From Pacificibacter maritimus (GTDB lineage: Bacteria > Pseudomonadota > Alphaproteobacteria > Rhodobacterales > Rhodobacteraceae), in assembly GCF_003814915.1 (NCBI RefSeq), contig NZ_RKQK01000001.1, positions 1,318,031 to 1,382,030 on the forward strand: a stretch of 64,000 bases of DNA, in the 5' to 3' direction. The notes under the pieces are model-generated. The model saw only the letters and a program-made list of their open reading frames with translations, had not been told where the DNA came from and searched no databases. The position numbers were made by a program, and so were the translations under genes. Position 1 is the stretch's first letter. Every line of letters starts with the position of its first letter. This document shows positions 7,179-52,428 of this stretch, in pieces.

Positions 7179-8687
7179 ATGACTTTTACACCACACGGAA
7201 AATCCCTGATCGCAGGACAGTGGATCGCAAGCAGCAGCCACTTCACAAGCGCGCCAAGCCACGGTGCTGCCCATGTTTTTTCCAACGGCACATCAGAGAT
7301 GGTGAATGAAGCTGTCGAAGCCGCAGAAGACGCATTTTGGAGCTACGGCTACAGCTCCGCTCAAGAACGCGCCACATTTCTGAATGCGATCGCCGATGAA
7401 ATCGACGCACGCGCCGATCAGATCACCGACATTGGCACCCGCGAGACAGGCCTGCCTGAGGGACGTTTGCAAGGCGAACGTGGACGTACTGTTGGCCAGT
7501 TGCGCATGTTTGCGACGCATATTTTGTCAGACGACTATCTGGATTTGCGTCACGACAAAGCATTGCCTGATCGCACACCTTTGCCGCGTTCAGATTTGCA
7601 AATGATCCAACGCCCTATCGGCCCTGTTGCCGTTTTCGGTGCCTCTAATTTCCCACTCGCATTTTCCACCGCGGGCGGTGACACAGCAGCAGCCTTGGCT
7701 GCGGGTTGTCCTGTGGTTGTCAAAGGCCACCAAGCCCACCCTGGCACAGGCGAAATCATTGCCGAAGCCATCCATGCGGCCATTCAGTCTTGTGGTGTGC
7801 ACCAAGGCGTTTTCAGCTTGGTTCAAGGTGACACAATCGAGGTCGGCCAGACCTTGGTGCAACATCCCTTGATCACTGCGGTGGGCTTTACGGGGTCACT
7901 GCGCGGCGGGCGCGCTTTGTTCGATCTTTGCGCCGCGCGTCCCAATCCCATCCCGTTCTTCGGTGAACTTGGATCAATCAATCCGATGTTCTTGTTGCCC
8001 CACGCGGTTGCAGCACGCGGGAGTGAAATTGCGGCGGGCTGGGCTGGGTCACTCACCATGGGCGCGGGGCAGTTTTGCACCAATCCTGGCGTTGCGATTG
8101 TGACCGAAGGTCCAGAGGCCGATGCGCTTGCCGAAACGATGAAAACCGCATTGGCCGAAACTACGCCCCAAACCATGCTGACCTCAGGAATCGCAAAGGC
8201 ATATGTGAGCGGGCGCGATACCGTGAAAGAAGCAGCACACATTGAAACCCTGTTGACGTCAAAATGCGAAGCGCGCAGCGCAACCCCCAGTTTTTTCAAA
8301 ACGGATGCGCAGACATGGCTTTCAACCCCTGCAATACAAGAAGAGGTTTTTGGTCCGCTGGCCATCATGGTTACCGTCAAAGATACGTCTGAAATGCAAA
8401 CAGTCGCCAAGGCGCTACAGGGCCAACTTACTTGCACATTGCATATGGACAGCGGTGACCTTGAAATGGCGACAAAACTGTTGCCAATTTTGGAACGCAA
8501 AGCAGGGCGCTTGCTTGCCAACGGGTTCCCGACGGGCGTCGAAGTCTGCGATGCAATGGTACATGGTGGGCCCTACCCCGCATCGACAAACTTTGGCGCA
8601 ACATCAGTTGGCACATTGGCTATCCGCCGCTTTCTGCGGCCTGTATGTTACCAAGACATGGGTGCGCTCAGTCCGATTACACAGTAA
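7179..8687 (+). CDS. 2-oxoglutarate semialdehyde (2,5-dioxovalerate) dehydrogenase
   Basis: A 502-residue aldehyde dehydrogenase with the expected catalytic residues: Asn in GASNFP near 157, Glu263 in FFGELG and the nucleophile Cys300 in GAGQFCTNPG. The FPLAFSTAGGDTAAALAAG and FGELGSINP segments are typical of alpha-ketoglutaric semialdehyde dehydrogenases of the arabinose/glucarate pathways. It oxidises 2-oxoglutarate semialdehyde to 2-oxoglutarate with NAD(P), the last Weimberg step, feeding the TCA cycle. It is the last clear member of the operon, 23 bases after the KDA dehydratase gene. Confidence 0.93.
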   Translation: MTFTPHGKSLIAGQWIASSSHFTSAPSHGAAHVFSNGTSEMVNEAVEAAEDAFWSYGYSSAQERATFLNAIADEIDARADQITDIGTRETGLPEGRLQGERGRTVGQLRMFATHILSDDYLDLRHDKALPDRTPLPRSDLQMIQRPIGPVAVFGASNFPLAFSTAGGDTAAALAAGCPVVVKGHQAHPGTGEIIAEAIHAAIQSCGVHQGVFSLVQGDTIEVGQTLVQHPLITAVGFTGSLRGGRALFDLCAARPNPIPFFGELGSINPMFLLPHAVAARGSEIAAGWAGSLTMGAGQFCTNPGVAIVTEGPEADALAETMKTALAETTPQTMLTSGIAKAYVSGRDTVKEAAHIETLLTSKCEARSATPSFFKTDAQTWLSTPAIQEEVFGPLAIMVTVKDTSEMQTVAKALQGQLTCTLHMDSGDLEMATKLLPILERKAGRLLANGFPTGVEVCDAMVHGGPYPASTNFGATSVGTLAIRRFLRPVCYQDMGALSPITQ

Positions 8688-8831
8688 AGGCACAAAGGGC
8701 AGCAATGACACCAATAGGCAATTGATCCGTAATGTTCACAAAATCAATCTTAGACATTATATCAATCAATTTCTATGATAGGTATTCGCACTTTAGTCTG
8801 CTGCGAAGAACTTTATTGTAAAGGAAATACC

Positions 8832-9728
8832 ATGCCAGCTCCGTCCTCCGTTATCACCCTTGGTACAGCAGGTGGCCCGATGCAGAACCCAGCACGTGCA
8901 CAGCCTGCACATGTTCTGATGAATGGCCAGAACCCTATCCTAATTGACTGCGGTGAAGCTGCAATGGGGCAGTTGAAACGCGCAGGTATTGAATACCGCG
9001 ACGTGAATCACATTTTTCTAACGCACCACCATTTCGACCATATCGGCAGCCTTTTCGCCTGCCTTGGCTTGAACATGATGACACAGCGCCGCCAACCGCT
9101 TTGCATCTACGGGCCTGCAGGCACGCAGTCTATTGTTGATGGTTTATGCGCGGCTTGTGATGTGCCAAACGCCATTGGTTTCGGAATTCCGGGGCAACAG
9201 CTTCCACACCCACGTGACTTTGTGAAAGTGACAGAGATTGCGCCAGGCGATGAGATCACGCTGGACGATCTAAAAATGACATGCTGTGAAAACACACATT
9301 ACCGCACCGAAGATCAATTCGGCCAAGAAGGTCACGTGTCGCTGTCTTTGCGTTTTGATCTGGCGGATCGTAGTGTCGTGTTTACGGGCGACACCGGCCC
9401 TTGCGAGGCACTTATCACGCTCAGTCAAGGCGCGGATCTGATCGTTGGCGAAATGATGGACCTTGATATCACTTTGGGGCGCATTCGCGGCTTGAACAAG
9501 GACATGCCTGAAGATCGCATTCAGATGATCAAATCCCATTTGTCAAAGCACCACATCAATGCAGAAGATCTTGCGAATATTGCAAAATCATCAGGCGCAA
9601 AAGAAGTTGTCGCTGTGCATTTCCCTCCTGGAATCGCGACTCCAGATACAGCGCAAGGCTATGTTGACCGCGTTGCCGCTATTTTTGATGGGAAGTTCTC
9701 AATCGGGCAGGATCTCGCAGAATACTAA
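8832..9728 (+). CDS. MBL-fold metallo-hydrolase (RNase Z/lactonase-like)
   Basis: A 298-residue metallo-beta-lactamase-fold protein with the metal motif THHHFDH (His65, His67, Asp69, His70) and a later FTGDTGPCE segment. The start is the ATG behind AAGGAAATACC; an upstream reading from 8775 adds unrelated residues. The family includes RNase Z-like phosphodiesterases, arylsulfatases and lactonases, so the substrate cannot be read off. It follows the arabinose operon after 144 bases and ends at a strong hairpin terminator. A role as the missing arabinonolactonase is possible but unproven. No signal peptide is visible. Confidence 0.82.
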   Translation: MPAPSSVITLGTAGGPMQNPARAQPAHVLMNGQNPILIDCGEAAMGQLKRAGIEYRDVNHIFLTHHHFDHIGSLFACLGLNMMTQRRQPLCIYGPAGTQSIVDGLCAACDVPNAIGFGIPGQQLPHPRDFVKVTEIAPGDEITLDDLKMTCCENTHYRTEDQFGQEGHVSLSLRFDLADRSVVFTGDTGPCEALITLSQGADLIVGEMMDLDITLGRIRGLNKDMPEDRIQMIKSHLSKHHINAEDLANIAKSSGAKEVVAVHFPPGIATPDTAQGYVDRVAAIFDGKFSIGQDLAEY

Positions 9729-9809: not shown

Positions 9810-10331
9810 TTAATTCGCCGTGATAACAACCTCAACCACACCTTCGTCTACAAGCGTGATTTCATTGGTGCCTTCGGTGTGACCGATATCGTAACGGTTC
9901 AGCAAAACAGTGCCGCCACCCATTGAGATGTCGTAAACACCAGAAATCACAGAATCACCGTCAGTGTAGTCGCCTTTGGCGTAAAAGCGGATGACGTCAC
10001 CGAATAGGAACATGTCTGCAGAAGCTGTTTCGCCAGCCGCAATCAGAACACCGGGAGGGCCCGATTTACCAAGAACAGGGCCTGCAACTGCGTCTGGCAT
10101 TGTGCCATTCATTGGGCGGGGGTCACCTTCAAGGATTGTTGTGACAAACGCCTCGGACAGGCCGCCCTCTGGTGTGAACATGACGGGTGATGCTTTAACT
10201 GCGTCAACAACGATCAAGGGCGCAATTACGCCTTCGGCCATATTGTTGGTGACGGAAATATTGTAATCGTTTGCAGTTGCCGCTGAGGCCGCGCAAACAG
10301 CCAATGTTGCTGCTGTGATTAACGTCTTCAT
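9810..10331 (-). CDS. Secreted spondin-domain-like protein
   Basis: A 173-residue protein with a clear signal peptide (MKTLITAATLAVCAASAATA, cleavage after the last Ala). The mature part opens with NISVTNNMAEG and APLIVVD, resembling bacterial spondin-N-domain exported proteins, and ends in a beta-rich tail. Function is unknown; it should be periplasmic or exported. A Shine-Dalgarno GGGAGGAG lies just upstream on the minus strand. It is divergent from a TRAP substrate-binding gene across a 280-base AT-rich spacer. The domain call is from memory of sequence style and is only moderately sure. Confidence 0.6.
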   Translation of the reverse strand: MKTLITAATLAVCAASAATANDYNISVTNNMAEGVIAPLIVVDAVKASPVMFTPEGGLSEAFVTTILEGDPRPMNGTMPDAVAGPVLGKSGPPGVLIAAGETASADMFLFGDVIRFYAKGDYTDGDSVISGVYDISMGGGTVLLNRYDIGHTEGTNEITLVDEGVVEVVITAN

Positions 10332-39513: not shown

Positions 39514-39960
39514 GTTGCAGTAAATGCTATCAACGGAGCGGCATCAAACCGCGACGGGTCTAGGGCATATCAGCGCGCGTCTCTTGAACGCGACCTCAAA
39601 AAGGTCAGCGCTCAGATTAACAAAATCGTAGAAGCGATCACGGCGGGATGTTTCACGCGTCGATGACGACAAGGATGGAGGAATCGGAGGCGCACAAGGC
39701 GGAGCTGGAAGCCCAACGCGCCGCTCTGCCCGATCAGGGCCCGATTGTTCTGCATCCTACTCTTGCAAAGACCTACCGTGGGAAGATCGCCGCTTTGTCT
39801 GATAACCTCAATGACGAAGCCTGCCGTTTTGAGGCTTCAGAGCTTTTGCGGGGGCTGATTTCTGCGATACGGATGCTGCCCGACGAGACCGCACTAAACG
39901 GGCAACGCATTAAACTCGTTGGTGAATTGGCTGCAATCTTGGAATTATCGCCCCCCCAGA
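39514..39960 (+). pseudogene. 3' remnant of a large serine recombinase
   Basis: Two frames joined by a frameshift near 39650 give AASNRDGSRAY...LERDLKKVSAQINKIVEAITAG and then MFHASMTTRMEESEAHKAELEAQ, LHPTLAKTYRGKIAAL and LVGELAAILEL. This is the coiled-coil C-terminal part of zinc-ribbon-type site-specific serine recombinases. The catalytic resolvase domain is gone. It marks an old phage or element integration at this locus. Confidence 0.7.
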
Positions 39961-40395
39961 AACGAGAACACCCGCTGTTTTACGGGCGGGGTGTCGGTTA
40001 CGTTGTTTTGGGGGTTATGTTTAGACCCTCCGACCCTAGCGTATGCTTGGATGCGTGTTGGTCTGCGATTGGCAGAGTTCAGTCGCCGGCTTGAGAGTTT
40101 TAGGATTTGGTTGCGGGATTATGATTTGCCTGGACGCCCCCGAGTGCATGATTTTCATGCACGGGGCATTGCGTTAGCAATGTTCAGTAATCAAGAAGTT
40201 TTTATAGTGAAGTTGGTTGCGGGAGCTCGACTTGGACACTGTTTCACAGGCTTAAGCGACATTAAGATTGAACGATAACACGCATATGCATTCAAGGGCA
40301 AAATTCGTCGGTCGTGTCGAACGGCCCTTATGTATTTACTAGCTGTTGAAGTCGGCCGTGGAGTGATCCGAATGTAAGCAGACAAACCGCAGGCC
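39961..40395. other. Gene-free spacer with hairpins
   Basis: About 435 bases between the recombinase remnant and the ATPase gene. It contains a terminator-like imperfect hairpin near 39969-39997 and a neat one, gtgcatga-ttt-tcatgcac, at 40144-40162. No gene is supported. Confidence 0.45.
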
Positions 40396-42696
40396 CTACT
40401 CACAAAGCTTCAACTGCCCCTCAGCAAACTTTTCAACGACGCTAAGCGCCTCCACAGCTGCTTCTATGATTTCGGCTTCTTGGTGGGGTGGATCGCTGAA
40501 CTTACCTCCGTGGCAAAGATCATTAAGTAAAACGCTTTTGATCTCGATCTTGTGGTCGCTGATCAAAATTTTTACAAACGCTTCGAAGTCTTGGATGTCT
40601 GGTCGGCAAAACTTCCACATACCCTCAATCACTGATCTGATCGAGTTCGGCGTAGTGTGGTCTGGGGGTTTATTACCTTTGCTTACTTCATAGATGTCGC
40701 GCAACTGAAGAACGTGCGGAGTTGCAAACGCTTTTTGATTGCTCAGTTGGTGCTTTGGATTTCCAGCGAGCAGTTGGAAAAGTCCATTGCTCTTGACGAC
40801 GTTGTTGGTGCTGATCACGTTGTAGAAATAGTTGTTATGGGTCAAGATCAGCATCTTCGGACGTGACAGCTGCGGCTCCAAGCTCATCAAAACTTGTCCA
40901 TCGTCAGCGAGACGAAGGTATTTCAAGCATTGAGCGATGCTGTAAATGTAATCAAAGGACAAAGACGATACCGGGTCATCGACGATAAGGAACAACTTTT
41001 TGTAGTCTTCAATGCTTTCAACCCGAAGGTGAATGCGGGCGATGTAATAACAAAATGCAATGACTGACTTTTCGCCATCACTCAGTGTTCGATCTGGACC
41101 GCGTGCAATCTCAGTGTCTTTCCGACGAACAGAAAATGAGGTTTCATCGAAAGTATAAGTATCAGCGAAAAAATTTCTGAGCAAAAGCTTGAATGTTTCA
41201 ATCACTCTCGCCTTCGCTGACCCACTATCACCGTGCGTTTTTTGGAGAATTTCAATTTCAAAGAAGAGCGACGTTACTTCAACATTTAATTGCCGGATTT
41301 CCTGAATAGCTGCGTCATTTTTTTCCGCAAAATCGGATGTAAATGCCGCACAGCTACCATTTTGGATCAAAAGGCGTTCTGAGTTTGAGTTAGACACAAG
41401 CGAAGATATTGATCTGTAAAGCTTGGCATTTTCTTCTACGGCTTTGGTAAGAACTGCCTCCAGCATCGTGAAATTTGATGGTGGAAGGTCAACTTCGACG
41501 CCGAGGCCCGTAAGCTTTGTTTCGACAACCGCTTTAACACACTTCAAAGTTTCGATTAGTTGGTCCAGCAGGGTGGACAAGTCCACTGATGTTTCGTCCG
41601 AAACCGAAGAAAAGAACTTTTTAAGTTCGTTGAACCGTAATTTCTCTTTCAGCGTCGCAGAGCGCTTTTGCTGAATGATGTCTGTTATTTGGTCCAGCTG
41701 TTTCCTGATGCGGTTTAATTGATTCGTGTGCTTAGCTTCCTCGTCATTGAAAAACTGGGTGTAGGCATCAATGGCCTGCAACGCAGTTTCATTGATGCCT
41801 TGCGTGCAAAATGGGCAACTTGTGTCCTCAGTTTTTAACAATTCAAGGCCACTTTGAAAAAAATTAGGATTGTGTTGAATACGTTTTTTGAACTGTGCTG
41901 CAACACTGGACGGAGAGGTTACTCGATGTAGAGCCTCGCCGATCTCTGCCAGGTCAGGAAATATTCCTGTTACCTCGATTTCCTGAGGAAGTTCAGGATC
42001 AGTAGGCAAGGATTTATAGAGATTGTATTGCTTTAGAAGTCCCGATAGGTCTTTCGCGTTTTCCGACCCAACGTATTTATTTTCAGAGAAGTAAACCTCA
42101 GAGTTAAGTTGTTTGAATGAACCAAGAGAACCTGTGATATTGAAATCAGATTTGAGTTTGGCCTTGCCCGCATCAAACTTTGCAACAAGATTGGTTCGCT
42201 TTTTTTCCACTTCTTCCTGCAGTTCACTAAGGTCTTTGTTTTTAGCGTCTATCTCTGTATTTTCCTTACCAACGATAATCTCGTGCGTGATGTTTCCATC
42301 CAAGCCGTGTAACCGATTGCGGACATGGGCTTCGATAAAGTCTTCAGAGAAAACATGATAAATGTATGATGGCTTAGATCGATTAACCGATCCAGCGTGA
42401 GCGTTTAGCCCAATGCTCCCGATACACTCATTTCCTTCAAAAAGCGCAAAGGTTCCTTGATGATCTACTGCTTCCTCTGATACCAGAATGGATGGGATTT
42501 CAGCCTCATCTTCACTTTCGTTCTTAACTGGATCGAGCAGCCGAAGTGCTCGCGCCATGAAAGATTTCCCCGTCCCGTTGCGTGCAAAAATTAGATGTTG
42601 AGGGCGGTCGGAAAGCTCTGCCTCAAGCTCCATAATAGGGCCAATATATTTTGCGCTAACGCGTAGCTTCGGCTTTGCTGCCTTAATAGTGCTCAT
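40396..42696 (-). CDS. RloC-like zinc-hook ATPase, candidate anticodon nuclease
   Basis: A 766-residue AAA_13/SMC-like protein. The split ABC ATPase head has Walker A ARNGTGKS at 38-45, signature LSDGEKS at 538-544, Walker B LFLIVDDP at 568-575 and an H-loop THN near 619. Between the head halves is a long coiled-coil-rich arm with a zinc-hook CPFC at 294-297. The C-terminal part carries Arg687-x3-Glu691 and His729, the order of the Arg-Glu-His triad known from PrrC/RloC tRNA anticodon nucleases. A phage-defence role is therefore plausible, but other AAA_13 proteins share parts of this pattern. The start MSTIKA is chosen; an upstream reading to 42774 adds 26 odd residues. It follows the relaxase gene in an AT-richer mobile segment. 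Confidence 0.8.
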   Translation of the reverse strand: MSTIKAAKPKLRVSAKYIGPIMELEAELSDRPQHLIFARNGTGKSFMARALRLLDPVKNESEDEAEIPSILVSEEAVDHQGTFALFEGNECIGSIGLNAHAGSVNRSKPSYIYHVFSEDFIEAHVRNRLHGLDGNITHEIIVGKENTEIDAKNKDLSELQEEVEKKRTNLVAKFDAGKAKLKSDFNITGSLGSFKQLNSEVYFSENKYVGSENAKDLSGLLKQYNLYKSLPTDPELPQEIEVTGIFPDLAEIGEALHRVTSPSSVAAQFKKRIQHNPNFFQSGLELLKTEDTSCPFCTQGINETALQAIDAYTQFFNDEEAKHTNQLNRIRKQLDQITDIIQQKRSATLKEKLRFNELKKFFSSVSDETSVDLSTLLDQLIETLKCVKAVVETKLTGLGVEVDLPPSNFTMLEAVLTKAVEENAKLYRSISSLVSNSNSERLLIQNGSCAAFTSDFAEKNDAAIQEIRQLNVEVTSLFFEIEILQKTHGDSGSAKARVIETFKLLLRNFFADTYTFDETSFSVRRKDTEIARGPDRTLSDGEKSVIAFCYYIARIHLRVESIEDYKKLFLIVDDPVSSLSFDYIYSIAQCLKYLRLADDGQVLMSLEPQLSRPKMLILTHNNYFYNVISTNNVVKSNGLFQLLAGNPKHQLSNQKAFATPHVLQLRDIYEVSKGNKPPDHTTPNSIRSVIEGMWKFCRPDIQDFEAFVKILISDHKIEIKSVLLNDLCHGGKFSDPPHQEAEIIEAAVEALSVVEKFAEGQLKLCE

Positions 42697-42777
42697 TCTG
42701 AAATACTCTAAAAATATCTTAACTATATTCAGAATGTGAGCCGAGTGGCATTGACCTGTCAAGTGGCAGTCCAATCC

Positions 42778-44280
42778 TTAGCCACCGAACCCCGGCGCAT
42801 CATCATCGTCTTGCAGTTCTGGCGCGTCACTGTCCTGCTGGCGCTTTGACAAGCGCAGCACAAGGCCGACAAAGCCGTTGATCAGTTTGCGGATTGGCGC
42901 GGAGACGTCATCGCGATCTGCCCCCTTCATGCGCGCGATGATATCGGGCCAGCGCGGCAGAAAGATATCGCCGTTTTCAACCACAGCCTCGCCCGCTTCA
43001 ACGGCTTCAAAAATCTCACTCATGGCGTCAACGGCCTCGGTCAGCTCTGCTTCACGATGGGTGATGCTTGCTTCTTTGTCAGCAAGCTCTGCAGCTTTGT
43101 CCTCACGTGCCTTCCTGTCTGCAAGTTTAGCACGGCGGATGGCGGCATGCTCACGCTCCAAGACCTGCGCTGCGTCAGCGACGTCAGCCGCATGAGCCTC
43201 CTCCCGCTTGGCGATGTCGGCTTCAGCCGCCGCCAATTCACTGGCCCGTGCGACAAGGTCTGCATCGATCACGGCATGCTCTGCACTCTGGGCTTCCAGC
43301 TGCGCCATGTCATCGGCCATGCGCTTGGCTTGCTTCTTTTCTGCCGTGTGTTGTTTGGTCGATTTGCGCGCCAAACGCGGCCCGTGGCGCAACAACCCGC
43401 AGGGTTTGCCAACCGCTTCAAAATAATCATCCTGCATCTTAATGAGGGCCGCGCCATAGACTTTTTGAACCGTTGAACGGCCACGTTTGCGGCGCTTCTC
43501 TTTCAAATGCTCCTTATTTCCCTCTTCCCACTCAAGCAGCAGTTTCGCATTTTCAGCCTCAACTTCTGCGCAATCTGTCTCCCAAGCGCTCAACGCCTTG
43601 CCATGCTTTTCATCATGCTTCTTTTGGGTGACGCGGTTTTTGGATGGGCGCGGTTTTTTAGGCTTACGAGGGCGCTTTGCCAGTTCAGGCTTGTCCAGCG
43701 ACACAATCACATCAGATTCATGTGTCTCCCTGAAGGCTGCAGCCGCGGCTTTTGCCGCATGAAGCTTGTTTGCGTCGAGTTTAGGGTCCGGCGTATTCAT
43801 CGCCAAAATGTGGATGTGAACATGCCCTTCATCGAGGTGAAGCACCGACGTATAATCGATGCCCTCAGGCATGCGCGCTTTAAAATCAGCCAGCGCACGC
43901 CTCACCCAATTCACAATTGTAGGAAAATGCTCGTCCATATTGGCAAGGTATTCTGCCGACGTCAAAGGATGGGAATGGATCTCAGTATAAAGCGTGGCGG
44001 CATCTTTGCGTAGCGCGCGTGTATAAGTGGTGCCAGTTTTACTGGTCACAGTCTCACGAATCTCAGCCAACATTTTCGCGCGCTTTGCCCTAAAATCTGC
44101 GATCGTAAGGGTGCCTGACAATTGTTGCGGAGGGCGGGGCATATCCACATGCTCAGAATAATACGGATCACGCTCAGCCTCGGCCTCAACTTGCGCCGCA
44201 CTGTTGAATTGATGAGGTGCGCCTTTCACTGGCTTTGGTTGCTCGCTGTATGTCTCAGCATGGAAAAATTGATAGCTCAT
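42778..44280 (-). CDS. MobV/Pre-type relaxase (plasmid mobilisation protein)
   Basis: A 500-residue protein. The HUH-type metal motif of the MobV/Pre family is at 148-157 (HLDEGHVHIH). An N-terminal relaxase domain covers about 60-290, a basic linker follows (RPRKPKKPRPSKNRV), and a long alanine/glutamate-rich coiled coil spans about 315-430. It would nick one strand at an origin of transfer to mobilise a plasmid or integrative element. The region upstream (44306-44861) is full of stem-loops, one of which could be the oriT. It lies just upstream of the RloC-like gene on the same strand. Confidence 0.82.
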   Translation of the reverse strand: MSYQFFHAETYSEQPKPVKGAPHQFNSAAQVEAEAERDPYYSEHVDMPRPPQQLSGTLTIADFRAKRAKMLAEIRETVTSKTGTTYTRALRKDAATLYTEIHSHPLTSAEYLANMDEHFPTIVNWVRRALADFKARMPEGIDYTSVLHLDEGHVHIHILAMNTPDPKLDANKLHAAKAAAAAFRETHESDVIVSLDKPELAKRPRKPKKPRPSKNRVTQKKHDEKHGKALSAWETDCAEVEAENAKLLLEWEEGNKEHLKEKRRKRGRSTVQKVYGAALIKMQDDYFEAVGKPCGLLRHGPRLARKSTKQHTAEKKQAKRMADDMAQLEAQSAEHAVIDADLVARASELAAAEADIAKREEAHAADVADAAQVLEREHAAIRRAKLADRKAREDKAAELADKEASITHREAELTEAVDAMSEIFEAVEAGEAVVENGDIFLPRWPDIIARMKGADRDDVSAPIRKLINGFVGLVLRLSKRQQDSDAPELQDDDDAPGFGG

Positions 44281-44305
44281 AGTAAATTCCCTTGATGTTA
44301 ATCTT

Positions 44306-44861
44306 TAGGAGTCTCCTATGTTTGGATTTTGCCAAATCCAGTGTTTGGCCGATGTGCCACGTCGTTTTCTGGGGATTACTCATTTTTTTACCCCCTGCCC
44401 CAAGGCAACCACGCGTCGCCACCACCCTCTTCATGCCGTGTCAACACACCAGCCGCCTTCTTTGAGTCCCTACAGTCCCCACCAAACTGCCGCTTATTTT
44501 TTGATGATTTTCTGTGACAGACCTTGCTTGCAAGGTTTGTCAATTTTCATGCGCAGACCAAAGCTCTGCGCTCAAACTGGGCGTGGCAACACGCCGTAAA
44601 ACCGTGCTTGTGGCACGGCAAAAACGCCAATCAAATGTATTGAACCGCGTGGCTCTAAGAACAGAGTTTTGGGATTTGTTTGGCGCATTATCATGCGCCT
44701 CGACCCCAAAAATGGTAGCTGGGAGGCTACCTATAAAGACAGACTGTAGGTAACTTAAGCTACCTCATCTGCCCCTTGCGCCGGGGAGGCGCTCCGTCTG
44801 ATCGTAAAACCATGCGTGGCATGTGTTTTGCGATCAAACTGCGCGGTTGGCGTTGCCAACC
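44306..44861. repeat. Dense array of non-identical stem-loops (possible oriT/regulatory RNA region)
   Basis: No gene is supported here, but many short, high-quality inverted repeats stand side by side. They are 44323-44340 (tggattt, loop tgcc), 44515-44542 (12-bp stem, loop cttg, one G-U), 44551-44571 (gcgcaga, 7), 44581-44594 (gcgtg, loop gcaa), 44602-44618 (ccgtgc), 44682-44699 (ggcgcat, loop tatc), 44714-44731 (ggtagc), 44748-44765 (aggta...tacct), 44778-44792 (gcgcc), 44799-44836 (about 17 bp with one bulge) and 44845-44861 (ggttggc, loop gtt). Arms differ in sequence, so this is neither a CRISPR nor a tandem repeat. It lies directly upstream of the relaxase gene. Confidence 0.7.
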
Positions 44862-44905
44862 TTGCATGACACCCTTGAGGGCGGAAGGGAAGAGCTTCAC
44901 GATGC

Positions 44906-45600
44906 TCAAACGGTCAGGCGTGACAGCCGTTGATCTGGCCGCATCACGGGCGGCCACGGCAATCGACTGATCGCCTCTGCCTTTGTCGCAAGCGGAGTCG
45001 TCTCGCTGTAGCGCTCCGCTGTGATCGATCCACCGGCATGACCCATAATGTCCTTCCGGACGGCCTCCGGCAGTTCAGCGTTACGGCCAAGCTGCGTCGC
45101 CACTTAGTGCCGAAAGCTGTGGAAGACCTTGCCCTCTGGACTACCGTCGAGCTGGGTCTGAACCAACTTCCGGAAGCGATAATCGACCTGACCTCCGAAC
45201 CCCGTTCGCTTACGGGGGCGAAGGTCGGGAAGGAGGTCCGCTTGCGGTCCGTGGCGGTCGATCTGGCGGGCGGCGTGGTCATTCAGGCCAAGCTCCACCA
45301 GCTGTGGATGCAGGGGCAGGTCGCGTTTGGCCGTGAGCAACTTGAGCCCGCGATTGGCGTTCGGCGTGATGATCAGGGCGGGCAGGCCGTCCATCACCGT
45401 GATCTCGGCGGCTTTGAGGGCCGCGATTTCCTCGCGCCGTGCCCCCGTCAGCGCGGCGATCAGCGGCACCCAATAGAACCCGTCTTGCACCAGCCGCGTT
45501 CCCGGCTCCTGCAAGTGGGTTTTGCTCTTCCAGCCATGCCAAACGGGATGGGCGAAGAGATTTTGCACATCATCGGCGGTAGCCTTTCGTCTTGATGGAT
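44906..45600 (-). pseudogene. Tyrosine integrase, N-terminally truncated with in-frame stop
   Basis: One minus-strand frame carries the catalytic core of a phage-type integrase: LTGARREEIAAL (first Arg), HSFRH (His-x2-Arg) and, after a TAA codon at 45104-45106, MGHAGGSITAERYSE (last His and the nucleophile Tyr). The frame is continuous through the stop, so a single nonsense change separates the two halves. The N-terminal core-binding domain is missing; a stop lies just upstream, near 45601. It is probably the defunct integrase of the neighbouring element. The next 300 bases (45601-45899) hold no gene I recognise. Confidence 0.8.
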
Positions 45601-45899: not shown

Positions 45900-46877
45900 T
45901 TATGTCAGACAGGATTGTTGCACAAAGGTCGTTATCTGCCTCAAGGCGCGCTCAATTTCTGTCCATGGTTTTCCGTATGTCATGAAGCCATGAATAGTGC
46001 CCGGACATTCAAGAAAATGCGTTTCAACCCCCGCAGAAATGAGCTTTTCGGCATATTCGCGCCCGCCATCCCGTATTGGGTCGTGTTCGGCGGTGATGAC
46101 GAGCGCAGGGGGGAGACCTGAGAAATCCTCGAAAAGCAACGGGCTGACCCTTGGATCCGTGAGATCAGCTTCGTTGCGCAAGTAATGTTCAATGGTGCGT
46201 GCCAAAGACGCTTCGCCGATGAGATACCCCGTTGGATAGGTCTTCCATGAGGGATAGTCTCGATGCTTTGACAATGCTACGCTGGGGTAAATCAATACTT
46301 GGCCTATGGGCATGTCCCCATGACGGCCTTTTAATTCATGCGACAGAACTGTGACCAAATTTGCGCCAGAACTATCGCCGCAAAGTATGATCTTTTCCGG
46401 TTTGATGCCGAAGTCCGCGGCCTTAGACAGCACCCAGTCGTAGATGCAAATGCAGTCTTGCGTTTGATGCGGGAAGGGATTTTCTGGCGCCATTCCATAA
46501 TCTGCACTGATGACTTTTACCCCAGTAGCGGCACAGATTTGACGACACAGGTTGTCGTGACTCTCGACATTTCCGACGACCCAAGCCCCCCCGTGGGCAA
46601 AAAAAATAGCCGCGCCATCACCACCAGTACAGGTTTCAACAGGGTCGTAAATCCGAATTGAGGCGGGTTGGCGGGTGTTCGGAACCGTATGATCCGTCGT
46701 GCTGGCAACATGCGCGGGAACAACATCGAAAACGGCAGCCATTTCAGTATGACGCCTGCGCAGCTCTGCGACGCTTGCATTGTGGGGAGCCGCATTCTGC
46801 GCGTTCCATTCCAGTATTTCGCGGACGTCAGGATCGAGTGTGGCATAGTGGTCTCGCAGATGGCTTGGCAGCTTCAT
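45900..46877 (-). CDS. Alpha/beta hydrolase, hormone-sensitive-lipase-type esterase
   Basis: A 325-residue HSL-family esterase with the oxyanion-hole motif FAHGGAW and nucleophile motif GDSSGAN, plus a likely acid in EHDPIRD and a His in GTIHGF. It should hydrolyse short acyl esters in the cytoplasm. Its ATG overlaps the stop of the upstream ABC ATPase gene by 4 bases. It therefore belongs to the Dpp/Opp-type operon and may deacylate the imported compound. Confidence 0.88.
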   Translation of the reverse strand: MKLPSHLRDHYATLDPDVREILEWNAQNAAPHNASVAELRRRHTEMAAVFDVVPAHVASTTDHTVPNTRQPASIRIYDPVETCTGGDGAAIFFAHGGAWVVGNVESHDNLCRQICAATGVKVISADYGMAPENPFPHQTQDCICIYDWVLSKAADFGIKPEKIILCGDSSGANLVTVLSHELKGRHGDMPIGQVLIYPSVALSKHRDYPSWKTYPTGYLIGEASLARTIEHYLRNEADLTDPRVSPLLFEDFSGLPPALVITAEHDPIRDGGREYAEKLISAGVETHFLECPGTIHGFMTYGKPWTEIERALRQITTFVQQSCLT

Positions 46878-47830
46878 TTTGACTCCAACAAGATACAGGC
46901 AGCAGAGACCTTTGGGCCCACGCTGCGAAGTTTAGGGATGGTCTGCGCGCATTGATCTGTCGCAACGGGGCAACGTGTTCTAAACGCACATCCGCTTGGC
47001 GGATTAAGCGGGCTTGCGACTTCGCCTGACAAAAGCGTTTTGCTGCGGCGTTTGGATGGGTGGTCAATCGGAACGGAATCCAACAAGGCCTTGGTGTATG
47101 GATGCGAAGGGGTGTCGAGCACGATGTCAGCGGGGCCTTCTTCGACGATACGACCCAGATACATCACAATAACACGGTCGCTGATATGTCGGACCACAGA
47201 CAGATCATGCGAGACAAACACGATAGATATTCCAAGATCGGCTTGTAGGTCCATCATGAGATTCAAAACCTGCGCTTGAATTGAAACATCCAAAGCGGAC
47301 ACAGGTTCATCAGCGACCAGTACCTTAGGGTTCAAGGCCAACGCGCGCGCAATCCCAAGCCGCTGACACTGCCCACCTGACAGTTCATGCGGATACCGCT
47401 GGCCAAAGTCAACGTTCAGCCCGACACGATGCAACAGATCGTGGGCCTTTTGGTTGCGTTCTTGTTTGGTACCCTCAGCGTAATTATCCAGTGGTTCACG
47501 GATCGCATCATGCGCGATCATCCGAGGATTTAACGACGTATATGGATCCTGAAAAACCATTTGCACATTGCGCCGCCACTGCTTTTCGACCGCGCCTGAG
47601 ATTTCGGAAATGTCGTTTCCATCAAATTCTATGCCGCCAGATGTCGCTTGTTCGAGACGCAACAAAAGTCGCGCCAATGTCGACTTTCCGCAACCGCTTT
47701 CCCCAACGATGGCAAGCGTTTCTCCCTTATTGAGCGTCAAAGATACATCGCTCACCGCTTTCAGAGATTTCCCTTTGCCTATATTGAACGTTTTTGAAAG
47801 TTCTTTTGTTTCCAACAATGCTTCAGACAT
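46874..47830 (-). CDS. Dipeptide/oligopeptide-type ABC transporter ATPase (DppF/OppF family)
   Basis: A 318-residue ATPase with Walker A GESGCGKST, signature LSGGQCQR, Walker B VLVADEPVSALD and the C-terminal oligopeptide-transporter tail GCAFRTRCPVATDQC. It pairs with the DppD-like ATPase. It overlaps that gene by 8 bases and the esterase gene by 4. The substrate class (peptide, glycoside, opine or oligosaccharide) cannot be read from the sequence. Confidence 0.93.
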   Translation of the reverse strand: MSEALLETKELSKTFNIGKGKSLKAVSDVSLTLNKGETLAIVGESGCGKSTLARLLLRLEQATSGGIEFDGNDISEISGAVEKQWRRNVQMVFQDPYTSLNPRMIAHDAIREPLDNYAEGTKQERNQKAHDLLHRVGLNVDFGQRYPHELSGGQCQRLGIARALALNPKVLVADEPVSALDVSIQAQVLNLMMDLQADLGISIVFVSHDLSVVRHISDRVIVMYLGRIVEEGPADIVLDTPSHPYTKALLDSVPIDHPSKRRSKTLLSGEVASPLNPPSGCAFRTRCPVATDQCAQTIPKLRSVGPKVSAACILLESK

Positions 47831-48824
47831 GTGTCTCTCCTAGCAAAGTGCCCAATTCATCACGCCGAATGCAGCGACTTAAATGCGTGCCAACCTGCAC
47901 TGTTTTTTCAGCGCCCAATTCTTGGCAGGCGGGGGTCATAAATGCGCAACGTGGCGCGAAGGTGCATCCGAGCGGGCGATCACGCAGCTCAGGCACAGAA
48001 CCCGGAATATCATTCAAACGTCGTTGCCTTGCCGCCGTGCGAGGGCTCGCACGCATCAACCCGACTGTATAAGCGTGCTGAGGATTATCGAACACTTCGG
48101 CCACTTGGCCAGCTTCGACCATGCGCCCTGCATACATAACAGCAACGCGATCGGCTGTTTCCGCGACAACACCCAGATCATGGGTGATGAACAAAACAGC
48201 TGTGCCCAGTTCCGTCTTGATGTCATCAATCAAAGCTAAGATTTGGGCTTGGATCGTAACATCAAGCGCTGTGGTCGGTTCATCCGCGATCAACACTTTG
48301 GGATTGCGAGACAAGGCCATCGCGATCATCACGCGTTGACGCATCCCCCCCGAAAGTTGATGGGGGTAGCCATCCATCCGCTTGGCGGCATCTGCAATGC
48401 GGACCAATTCAAGATAGTGGATCGCCTTCTGTCTCGCCTCTTGTTTGCTAATGTTTGGCGCAAGCCGTATTGCTTCGATCATCTGGTAACCGATGGTAAA
48501 GGCAGGATTCAGCGACGACATGGGATCTTGAAAAATCATCGCAACACCTTCACCGCGCAATGCCTTCAAAGACTTTGTGTCTTTAGGGTCAATTTCGACC
48601 CCGTCAAACATGAACTGGTCCGCTGTGGCATGAGCGCTTTCAGGCAAAAGACCTAATAAGCTTAGGGCGCTGATTGACTTTCCAGATCCCGATTCTCCGA
48701 CAAGACACAGGGTTTCCCCTGCCCTTAAATCAAATGACAGATCTTCAACTGTGGGGGCCGCCGCAGCAGATCCGAACCGGATGTTTAGCCCCTTCACCTC
48801 TAGAATTTTCTTATTCACACTCAT
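47823..48824 (-). CDS. Dipeptide/oligopeptide-type ABC transporter ATPase (DppD/OppD family)
   Basis: A 333-residue ATPase with Walker A GESGSGKS, signature LSGGMRQR, Walker [13 protein letters not shown] and the C-terminal Cys-rich tail [10 protein letters not shown]. The start MSVNKK is chosen because GGAGGT lies 7 bases upstream; the reading from 48848 runs into the permease gene. It forms a heterodimer with the following ATPase. Confidence 0.93.
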
Positions 48825-48825
48825 C

Positions 48826-49716
48826 TCAAGACCTCCGACGCGCAACACGGGGGTCTAGGACTTCTCGCAGCCTGTCTCCCAGAATGTTCACAGACAAAAC
48901 AAGCAACGACAGCATCAAACCCGGAAATCCAATGGCCCAAGGCGCAATTTGAAAAAAGACTCTGCTTTCGGCAATAATGCCCCCCCAGCTTGGAATATTG
49001 GGCGGCGTGCCAGCGCCAAGAAAACTTAAGATTGCTTCGGTCATAATGGCAGATGCACAGGTTGCCGTTGCCTGCACAGACAAGGCGCCAACAGTGTTTG
49101 GCAGCAAATGACGTAGCAAGATTTTCCATTGCGGTGTGCCCATCGTCACGGCGGCATCAATGAATGGCATTTCTTTAAGCGACACCACAACGCTGCGCAC
49201 AATCCGCGCCATGCGTGGGATTTCAGGCACGGAAATGGCAATGATAATTGTCAGCAGGCTGGACCCCATCAAAGCCACAAGAGCAATGGCCAGTAACACG
49301 TTTGGAATGGCCATAAAGCCGTCCATCAAGCGCATGATGATCTTGTCACCGAAGCTGATAAAGCCTGACACCAATCCAAGAATACAACCGATTATCGTGG
49401 TTGCGATGGCAACACTGAAACCGATGATCAGCGAGTTTCTTGTGCCGACCATCGTGCGTTCAAATACATCACGACCAAGATGGTCTGTGCCGAAAAAATG
49501 GTCAGCACTTGGCGGTTTCATCCTGTCCAAGGGGTTGATGTCAGAATAGCTGTGGTAAACCATCGGAGCGATAACTGAGATTAAGAGCGCCGCAATCAAA
49601 ATCAGAACGGCGGATTTTTCGACGCGGCCATCTGTAAATTCACTTAGAAACCGTCGAAAATCCACCATGCGGGATCTTTGAACGTGTTGGCGTGGTACGG
49701 TTTGAGACGTATTCAT
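48826..49716 (-). CDS. ABC transporter permease (DppC/OppC family)
   Basis: A 296-residue membrane protein with the OppC N-terminal domain and FGTDHLGRDVFERTM, followed by five hydrophobic segments and the EAA loop (EMPFIDAAVTMGTPQWKIL). It is the second permease of the operon, 9 bases after the DppB-like gene. It ends one base before the DppD-like start. Confidence 0.94.
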   Translation of the reverse strand: MNTSQTVPRQHVQRSRMVDFRRFLSEFTDGRVEKSAVLILIAALLISVIAPMVYHSYSDINPLDRMKPPSADHFFGTDHLGRDVFERTMVGTRNSLIIGFSVAIATTIIGCILGLVSGFISFGDKIIMRLMDGFMAIPNVLLAIALVALMGSSLLTIIIAISVPEIPRMARIVRSVVVSLKEMPFIDAAVTMGTPQWKILLRHLLPNTVGALSVQATATCASAIMTEAILSFLGAGTPPNIPSWGGIIAESRVFFQIAPWAIGFPGLMLSLLVLSVNILGDRLREVLDPRVARRRS

Positions 49717-49725
49717 GATGTAACC

Positions 49726-50667
49726 CTAGTACCGGATCCGTGGATCAAAGAGCACGTAACTCAGATCCACAAGAAGATTGACGACGATCAAAACCACTGA
49801 GAAAAAAATCATAGTGCCTTGGACGACGGGGAAATCGCGCTGGGTGATTGCATCGACCACAAGCCGACCAATTCCAGGGATGTTGAAAACGGACTCGGTG
49901 ACAACGACGCCTGAAATCAGGATCGCGATCCCGACACCTATGACAGTCGAAATCGGCACCCCTGCATTTTTGAGCGCATGGACAAATAGAACTTTTCCTT
50001 CGCTCAGCCCTTTTGCACGGGCGGTTCGTGTATAGCCTTCTTGCAAGATCTCGATCATCGCGGCACGCGTGATGCGCGCGACGAGAGCCCAAAACACCAA
50101 GGTTATTGTGAATGCGGGAAGTGCAACAGAGCGCAATGTGCCCAAAACACCATCACTCAGGTTGGCGTAGCCTTGCACAGGAAACCACCCCAGTTTGAGC
50201 GCAAAGACATACATATTGGCATAGCCGATCAAAAAGGCAGGCACAGAAAACCCAAGCACTGATAGGATCATGATCGAACGATCTGACGTGGAATTGACCT
50301 TCCACGCGGCAATCACCCCTGCGGGAACAGCCAGAAAGATTGTCAGTACAATCGTCAAGCTGGTCAGCACCAAGGTTGGTTCCAAACGCGCGGCAATTAA
50401 TTCAGTGACCGGCCTGTTTGAAAAGATAGAGTTGCCTAGATCAAAGCGCAGGATATCGGAAAACCAATATCCGAATTGCGTCACAAGCGGTTCATCCAAA
50501 TGCAACCTGTCTCTGATTTGCGCGATTTGCTCAGGCGTGGCGTTTTCACCTGCAATCAGGGCAGCAGGATCGCCTGGGGCAAGATGGCTCAGCAGGAACA
50601 CAAAAATGGCAACAAACAAAACGATCGGAACTGAAGCCAAAAGTCTACTTGAGATATACTTAAACAT
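49726..50667 (-). CDS. ABC transporter permease (DppB/OppB family)
   Basis: A 313-residue membrane protein with the OppB start FKYISSRLLASVPIVLFVAIFVFLL, the HLAPGDPAA motif, the EAA loop (YTRTARAKGLSEGKVLFVHALKNA) and the C-terminal YVLFDPRIRY. It forms the transport channel with the DppC-like protein. Confidence 0.95.
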   Translation of the reverse strand: MFKYISSRLLASVPIVLFVAIFVFLLSHLAPGDPAALIAGENATPEQIAQIRDRLHLDEPLVTQFGYWFSDILRFDLGNSIFSNRPVTELIAARLEPTLVLTSLTIVLTIFLAVPAGVIAAWKVNSTSDRSIMILSVLGFSVPAFLIGYANMYVFALKLGWFPVQGYANLSDGVLGTLRSVALPAFTITLVFWALVARITRAAMIEILQEGYTRTARAKGLSEGKVLFVHALKNAGVPISTVIGVGIAILISGVVVTESVFNIPGIGRLVVDAITQRDFPVVQGTMIFFSVVLIVVNLLVDLSYVLFDPRIRY

Positions 50668-50755
50668 AAGTGTCTTCTTTTTCTGTGGGGATTATCGGGG
50701 CACGAGATTGTGGACCCAGCCAAATATGAAAACGGCTGGGTCAAAGCGCTTGTGT

Positions 50756-52339
50756 CTACTCCGCCTTCGAGACACCCCAAAGGTTCGTTGTGACTGTCGC
50801 TTGCCGCATCCCTTCAAGGTTCGCAGACCACGCACTGGCCTGAGTGTATTGTCCCATCATAATCACTGAAACAATCTCATAGGCCTCTTGCTGCATGGCC
50901 TCTCCGATTGTTTTTTGTTCATCGACCGAAGTGGCATTAATATAATCTTGCTTCAGTCTTTGTAATGTTTCGGAACAGTTCCAGCCGTACCATGCATCAT
51001 CACAAGCGCCGCTCACATAGACGTTTGTCAGTGGGCTCTGCAGCGCCATGCCATCCCAACCCGTTTGAAAAATATTCCAGCCGCCTTCAGCAATGGGCGC
51101 CTTATTTGCACGACGTTGGGCAATGGTTGCCCAATCCGAAACGACATCATCCACCACAAACCCAGCTTCACGAAGACGCTGCGCTGTGACAGAACCGCCA
51201 GTGCGTTGATCGCTAACGTCGGTAGCGTGCAGCAAAGTGAGGGGCGTTCCGTCATAGCCGGCCTCAGCAAGCAAAGCCTTCGCAGCCTCGACATCTTGCG
51301 ACATCTGCCGTTCGCTGTTTGCGTCGTTTTCCAGCGCCGTTCCACACATAAATATCGATGGGCAATAGCTGTACAATTCGTCATATGACCCCAGAATAGC
51401 GGTCATGTAATCTTCTTGCCCCAACGCCAACTGCATGGCCTGACGGATCCGCACATCATCGGTTGGCGGCTGCAAAAAGTTCGGGATAATCTGGATGGTC
51501 TGACCAAGTGGATTGTGCGGCTGCACCACCACATCGCTTGCCCCGGAAAGAATAGGGATCAGGTCTGGTTGAAACTGCGGGATATAGTCTATTTCACCCG
51601 TTGCAAGCGCATTTACGGCAGTGATGTCATCAGGAAAGAACACACGTTCGATCCGATCAACCATTGCAACCTTACCGCCAGCCAAGCCCGAAGGCGCCTC
51701 GTCGCGGGGCACATATGCCTCGAATTTCTCGTAGACGGCTTTGACGCCAGGCTGCCAATCGTCCAATATGAACTTAAATGGCCCCGATCCAACAGGATCA
51801 GAAATTTGATCATCGACCGCACCACTGGCGATCCGCGCAGGCATGATAAATGGAACATTAGAGGCCGTTTTTCCAAACGCGTCTACAACCAATCCAAAAG
51901 GCTCTGTCAGCGACAGGGTGAAGATTTTGTCATCCACCACATCCATCGAAGAAAGTCTGTTTTTGATCTCGACGCCAAACGTATCCTTGTGCATCCAGCG
52001 TTCCAGTGACGCCACGACGTCTTGACTGGTGACGGGGGCACCATCATGGAACATTAGCCCATCGCGCAGTGAAAACCTGTAGGCCATTCGATCCTCACTG
52101 ACTGTCCACGTATCAATCATTTGAGGTTTTATATTGCCCTCAGCATCTTGGGCAAACAATGTATCGTAAATTAGGTATCCGTGATCGCGCACGCCGTAAT
52201 TGGTTGTCCAAATCGGATCCAACATGTCCAATTTCGACAGTCCCATATAACGTATAGTGGTTTCTGCTTGCGCTGCAGGCGCAACCAACGCCATCCCAAC
52301 GATGGCCGCGCAAAGGCTCTGCTTAGTATAGAAAAACAT
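50756..52339 (-). CDS. ABC transporter substrate-binding protein, family 5 (DppA/OppA type)
   Basis: A 527-residue periplasmic protein with a signal peptide (cleavage after APAAQA near residue 25) and the SBP_bac_5 pattern: AYRFSLRDGLMFHDGAPVTSQDVVASLERW and ALATGEIDYIPQ. It binds the ligand of the DppBCDF-like system. Of two adjacent ATGs the second is chosen, since it has better spacing from GGGAGG. It is first in a six-gene operon divergent from a LacI regulator gene. Confidence 0.92.
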   Translation of the reverse strand: MFFYTKQSLCAAIVGMALVAPAAQAETTIRYMGLSKLDMLDPIWTTNYGVRDHGYLIYDTLFAQDAEGNIKPQMIDTWTVSEDRMAYRFSLRDGLMFHDGAPVTSQDVVASLERWMHKDTFGVEIKNRLSSMDVVDDKIFTLSLTEPFGLVVDAFGKTASNVPFIMPARIASGAVDDQISDPVGSGPFKFILDDWQPGVKAVYEKFEAYVPRDEAPSGLAGGKVAMVDRIERVFFPDDITAVNALATGEIDYIPQFQPDLIPILSGASDVVVQPHNPLGQTIQIIPNFLQPPTDDVRIRQAMQLALGQEDYMTAILGSYDELYSYCPSIFMCGTALENDANSERQMSQDVEAAKALLAEAGYDGTPLTLLHATDVSDQRTGGSVTAQRLREAGFVVDDVVSDWATIAQRRANKAPIAEGGWNIFQTGWDGMALQSPLTNVYVSGACDDAWYGWNCSETLQRLKQDYINATSVDEQKTIGEAMQQEAYEIVSVIMMGQYTQASAWSANLEGMRQATVTTNLWGVSKAE

Positions 52340-52428
52340 CATTTCCTCCCATGTGTTCGCTATCCTCACATAAACAGCTGTCACTGAAAGACATATTAAT
52401 CTACAAAAATATTCAAAAAAAACCTCAT

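Follow-up and report, generated by a model that had tools for sequence, protein, structure and literature searches.

Few parts of mobile elements are as poorly annotated as their transfer origins (oriT), and genomic islands are often judged non-mobile when no oriT is found in them. In plasmid pMV158, whose relaxase is MobM, 8 nt separate an inner inverted repeat from the nick downstream of it, an extended repeat whose right arm contains a 3-nt bulge reaches to the nick, and a third repeat encloses it, with a direct repeat common to two of the arms; the nicked strand is the mobM coding strand, cut at 5'-TGTG/TTATAC-3' (PMC5863519). According to the available excerpts of their descriptions, the Proteobacterial MOBV2 plasmids (pBBR1 and plasmids of Psychrobacter and Paracoccus) carry an oriT with a short inverted repeat upstream of mobA (PMC3632715, PMC3832669). 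Chromosomal representatives also exist, such as IMESag-rpsI, a MOBV1 integrative and mobilizable element (IME) of Streptococcus agalactiae (PMC5090054).

Here, we analyzed a stretch of 64,000 nucleotides from Pacificibacter maritimus (hereafter the window), in which a dense cluster of hairpins lies upstream of a gene encoding a putative relaxase. We consider it likely that a MobV-type IME has its origin of transfer in this region, one of the candidates named in the first-pass annotation. This reading is strongly supported by four features of the compared sequences, namely the anatomy of a predicted nick hairpin, the strand on which it folds, its co-occurrence with the relaxase and the presence of the same hairpin at distant MobV loci. 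The pMV158 origin was compared through its published description (PMC5863519).

Table 1. Features of the putative transfer origin and its surroundings, in window coordinates
Feature	Position	Strand	Basis
Probable large serine recombinase remnant	39648..40094	plus	BLASTP clustering with the 557-aa recombinase-like ORF of L045
Cargo gene, 792 aa, AAA_13	40396..42774	minus	Pfam, E=1.8e-35
MobV-like relaxase gene, 500 aa, HUH-type metal motif HLDEGHVHIH	42778..44280	minus	Pfam, profile, alignment A2
Hairpin cluster	12 hairpins in 44515-44861; two more at 44306-44318 and 44323-44340		
Distal hairpin array, between predicted nick and relaxase gene	44515..44712		Hairpin positions
First distal hairpin past the nick, GGTAGC...GCTACC	44714..44731	minus	Common to L035 and L004
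Conserved structured core (model R1): putative oriT and extended module	44725..44867	minus	Covariation, R1 match, co-occurrence with relaxase
IR2-like alternative hairpin, arms GTTACCT...AGGTAGC enclosing the predicted nick	44726..44754	minus	Pairing in cores
Predicted nick, 5'-AGTCTG/TC-3'	44740/44739	minus	8 nt after inner stem; by analogy with pMV158
Nick hairpin (IR3/IR1-like)	44740..44771	minus	Anatomy as pMV158 IR1/IR3 (PMC5863519)
Pseudoknot: stem GCGCC/GGCGC, loop TCCCC; loop CCCC pairs with downstream GGGG	44772..44792	minus	Covariation
Hairpin B, sequence-variable stem anchored by GTT/GAC	44796..44839	minus	Covariation
Hairpin A, GCAAG-variable stem-GCGCA	44840..44865	minus	Motif in 13/13 cores
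Tyrosine-type integrase fragment, left of core	45104..45568	minus	Region 65% identical to L038 integrase residues 402-611

Judged from its sequence, the relaxase is MobV-like and divergent. Its match to Pfam PF01076 (Mob_Pre) reached 20.9 bits (E=3.5e-4), under the cut-off of 25.5, and the NCBIfam MobV model NF041497 gave no match to the window protein and 18.1 bits to its homolog at L010, against a cut-off of 100. A profile built from ten relaxase homologs matched the MobM structure 4LVI (E=0.0047) over the HUH motif. Motif III of the MOBV family, HxDExxPHUH (PMC5090054), is present with its P replaced by V, and in alignment A2 motif I (HxxR) is absent, the relaxase reading HQFN (HxxN), and motif II (NYD/EL) is not recognisable. 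The plasmid carrying the Qingshengfaniella homolog was assigned to type MOBV by MOB-suite. The first-pass annotation had called this protein MobV, which stands as to its kind and needs the qualification that the protein is a divergent member. A relaxase match was found in 26 of 397 genomes of the family, and nine of these genomes contain the close subfamily, whole or in fragments (E 1e-87 or better).

The hairpins were located where the first-pass annotation had placed them, with unrelated stem sequences and small loops as described there; its count of ten plus one proved slightly low compared with the 12 plus two located here. The region 44500-44870 folds better than all of its shuffled versions on both strands with either RNA or DNA parameters (z between -7.55 and -9.99), which bears out the folding check that had been proposed. 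With RNA parameters, the minus strand reached -163.7 kcal/mol (z = -9.99, 0 of 100 shuffles as good) and the plus strand -159 kcal/mol (z = -7.76), and the DNA-parameter folds gave z = -7.55 (minus) and -8.22 (plus). Two distinct sets make up the cluster, a conserved core at 44725-44867 and a distal array at 44515-44731. Four terminator-like sites were detected against 0.9 expected, and they leave the conserved core unexplained. A housekeeping RNA gene was rejected likewise, as the core occurs in only nine of the 397 family genomes and its exact pattern is absent from the other class genomes searched; no tRNA or tmRNA was detected in the 64-kb window.

The core is shared upstream of most close relaxase homologs, on the relaxase-coding strand, and comparative analysis of these sequences supports both its folding and its strand. 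In alignment A1, from which model R1 was also built, nine cores exhibit 98.9% of cells paired and nine double-change pairs versus 3.6 in shuffles. Across 13 cores, 98.6% of cells are paired and nine helix positions bear double changes versus 5.0 in shuffles, counts that are optimistic given the relatedness of the sequences; sliding controls, which preserve this relatedness, yielded only 32-40% of paired cells. These are the compensatory changes in homologs that had been suggested as a check on the stems. On the relaxase-coding strand, the 13 cores comprise 21 G-T pairs distributed over six columns and no A-C pair in any column, which identifies that strand as the folded one and agrees with the G-U pairs claimed earlier. 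Model R1 scores the window core, one of its training sequences, at 117.9 bits, and its search of the 397 family genomes retrieved the core in nine, the same nine that carry the relaxase subfamily or its fragments, while the exact core pattern was found among 385 class genomes in the own genome only. R1 also matches the sense strand of five group-3 loci, though at weak E values (0.005 to 0.3) and with a few antisense matches intermixed. Two cores, L060 (G370:C1:75958-76085) and L047 near position 9835 (G032), have no adjacent relaxase gene and are candidate oriT-only islands for which mobilisation in trans is possible. By eye, a TOPRIM/OLD-like protein is apparently encoded downstream of the relaxase-less copy in G370.

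The 3' part of the core is the nick hairpin. In the window, it consists of an outer stem CAGAT/GTCTG and an inner stem AGGTAGC/GTTACCT, with a 3-nt ACA bulge in the right arm. Across the cores, the inner stem reads AGGTAGCT/AGCTACCT (the window right arm being AGTTACCT), the right-arm bulge is AYA (3 nt), and the outer stem CAGAY/GTCTG is followed by TC. The IR2-like helix, in which AGGTAGC is a direct repeat of the left arm of the inner stem, is paired in 89.7% of cells and exhibits no double changes. A strict hairpin-plus-nick pattern was detected upstream of 16 of 30 MobV-like genes in the sense orientation, in none in antisense and in none of 20 shuffle sets; since the motif was first seen partly in these same loci, the count of 16 is a description and not an independent test, and the shuffled and antisense controls stay valid. 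The 30 upstream regions include those of relaxases about 30% identical as well as small plasmids of Sulfitobacter, Sinorhizobium, Pseudomonas, Aeromonas, and Citrobacter; more distant MobV relaxases, including small-plasmid ones, have the same nick hairpin. Under looser inspection, other MobV loci replace the CAGAY/GTCTG outer stem of the window's group with CCGAC/GTCGG or CCGGC/GTCGG. The automated search misplaced the hairpin at L035, L033, L025, and L082, the placements at L079 and L080 are doubtful, and the true L035 site was taken from the alignment.

Upstream of the nick hairpin, hairpins A and B and a covarying pseudoknot constitute what is apparently an undescribed module. The GCAAG/GCGCA motif of hairpin A is invariant, double changes occur at two of its five counted pairs, and a similar motif is found in the L079 and L080 plasmids. 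Hairpin B bears double changes at six of seven counted pairs, its stem sequence being replaced wholesale between cores. The pseudoknot pairing becomes CCAC/GTGG in three related cores, a change within group 1 that is known from one related sequence set, and the L060 core holds a G-G mismatch in it. A scan of the group-1 loci recovered the pseudoknot in eight of eight sense sequences and in none in antisense (shuffle mean 0.38). At the same position, four group-3 loci have CCCC/GGGG or CCGC/GCGG, the latter in L024 and L025. In group 2, sense matches in seven of nine loci were accompanied by antisense matches in four, for which reason no pseudoknot is claimed there.

The distal array has a far narrower distribution, being confined to the two Pacificibacter genomes and, in part, one related locus (L004). 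The array of Pacificibacter marinus (L035) is near-identical and therefore uninformative for covariation. Over the whole nick-to-relaxase stretch of L004, 16 of 142 pairs are changed on both sides and still paired versus 59 that are broken, many of them in the diverged part. With this near-identity in the one relative and this balance in the other, the array stands as a lineage-specific addition, modestly supported.

Comparison of its copies outlines the element surrounding these structures. Between the window and P. marinus, identity is 95% over the span from core to relaxase stop codon, and the sequences immediately beyond are unrelated. In G263 and G369, the copies are about 93% identical over core and relaxase and carry different cargo, past which they have in common an AAA/peptidase-like gene and a large serine recombinase; they place the left end of the element near the core, homology among copies starting about 17 nt outside it. 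Serine recombinase and AAA genes are thus found in relatives of the element. The AAA_13 protein carried as cargo in the window is a candidate defence protein by its match to PADLOC PDC-S06 (E=3e-142), with a weaker match to PrrC, and another copy of the element (L046 4637-7099, G307) carries a type I restriction enzyme gene. On a Paracoccus plasmid (L088 3231-3720), a MobV-like relaxase gene is directly followed by a gene annotated as a reverse transcriptase. The recombinase remnant in the window has no Pfam match of its own. To the left of the core, the integrase fragment resembles the L038 integrase, which contains DUF6538 and a sub-threshold Phage_integrase match; in L038 itself (7702-9703, an IMG/VR contig), the DUF6538 tyrosine integrase ORF is full-length and extends into the core, where it terminates; the related fragment of the window lies on the same side. 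Integrase 3' ends may be a preferred insertion place. Farther out, at 46874-52384, the translations of the ORFs suggest a peptide ABC transporter operon next to an alpha/beta hydrolase-like gene. As the host genome yielded no VirB4 or VirD4 match, a helper would have to come in for transfer to occur; together with a recombinase that is only a probable remnant, this indicates that the putative oriT resides in what is probably a degraded element, immobilised or helper-dependent.

The hairpins admit other explanations, and we weighed each against the distribution and strand of the core. Serine-recombinase sites need no conserved multi-hairpin fold, and we regard it as very improbable that the region serves for attachment, whether by the element's recombinase or by the integrase next to it. 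The start of homology so close to the core and the integrase ORF ending within it in L038 would fit such a site, but the conserved fold exceeds what a serine recombinase needs, the stems covary on one strand and the copies differ in their left flanks; a search for an empty site was negative, as no relative with the flank of the G263 C5 insertion was retrieved. The integration-site cluster proposed in the first-pass annotation is unsupported as such, though the core does lie at the left end of the shared element. A structured RNA, either a relaxase mRNA leader or a small noncoding RNA controlling the element, is improbable too, if less so. The z of about -10 for the coding-strand RNA fold and the strict strand preference with a pseudoknot, usual in RNA, are what such a molecule would present. 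Yet the G370a core lies about 1.6 kb upstream of its relaxase gene with an opposing ORF in between, and the G032a and G370b cores adjoin no relaxase gene, which argues against a cis-acting leader and leaves aside a trans-acting RNA; moreover, no Rfam family matched at gathering score, no sigma-70-like promoter was detected in 44200-45100, and the nick hairpin is accounted for by an oriT. The multi-hairpin RNA of the first reading, taken as a cis leader, is disfavoured by these arrangements.

Less easily set aside, though still rather unlikely, is a single-strand origin (sso), in which the upstream hairpins or the distal array would let host RNA polymerase or primase start the second strand beside a simpler oriT. 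A multi-hairpin single-stranded DNA of about 200 nt would suit this function, and the window array sits between the predicted nick and the relaxase gene. In ICEBs1, a multi-hairpin sso adjoins the relaxase gene (PMC4595007), and the order in the MOBV element IMESag-rpsI is oriT-relaxase-ssoA (PMC5090054). Against this, the array is absent from most relatives.

Taken as a transfer origin, the region is very probably an oriT of much greater complexity than the described ones of its class, its conserved fold being specific to one strand and including a pseudoknot. The 44740-44771 hairpin would form in folded single-stranded or in supercoiled DNA and be bound by the relaxase at its inner stem. The outer stem would then be opened, as it is by MobM, and cleavage between 44740 and 44739 would follow, after which the enzyme would pilot the cut minus strand through the secretion system of a helper. 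The upstream module, being 5' of the nick, would enter the recipient last, and for this reason recognition at strand rejoining is its likeliest role, or else relaxosome assembly; hairpins A and B and the pseudoknot might alternatively serve as an sso. The distal array, 3' of the nick, would enter first and may help second-strand synthesis. The comparisons above show structure, strand, covariation, and co-occurrence, whereas nicking, transfer, and the role of the added parts are inferred. As a tentative generalisation, short of an even chance, alphaproteobacterial MobV elements might use an enlarged oriT whose strand-specific single-stranded fold, with a conserved pseudoknot and hairpins free in sequence, takes an active part in conjugation, an architecture not known to be described for any relaxase class, and their relaxase-less copies might be mobilised in trans. 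Model R1 together with the nick rule provides a searchable structural signature for such elements, whose cargo includes candidate defence genes and a type I restriction system, and the cores point to relaxase-less oriT islands. Should the pseudoknot module turn out to be required, this would show that an oriT can be a folded single-stranded structure extending well beyond the nick hairpin.

In comparison with known systems, the locus most closely recalls pMV158/MobM (MOBV1) in its three overlapping inverted repeats, 8-nt spacing, 3-nt bulge, direct repeat, and G/T nick, and the folded strand is the relaxase-coding strand, the one nicked in pMV158, the nick here being predicted. The pMV158 oriT measures about 43 nt, whereas hairpins A and B, the pseudoknot and, in some copies, the distal array are added here. 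With the MOBV2 plasmids, the locus and its putative oriT share the position upstream of the relaxase gene and a short inverted repeat; the excerpts of their descriptions available to us present single short inverted repeats, with no pseudoknot or conserved upstream module (PMC3632715, PMC3832669). ICEBs1 sso1 is similarly a multi-stem-loop region near a relaxase gene, but it lies downstream of that gene and resembles plasmid sso sequences (PMC4595007). Like the putative one here, the oriT of IMESag-rpsI, a chromosomal element, directly precedes the gene for that element's own MOBV relaxase (PMC5090054). That element possesses a 42-bp oriT and a recognisable ssoA, whereas the one described here is alphaproteobacterial, has a serine recombinase in its relatives, and carries candidate defence cargo.
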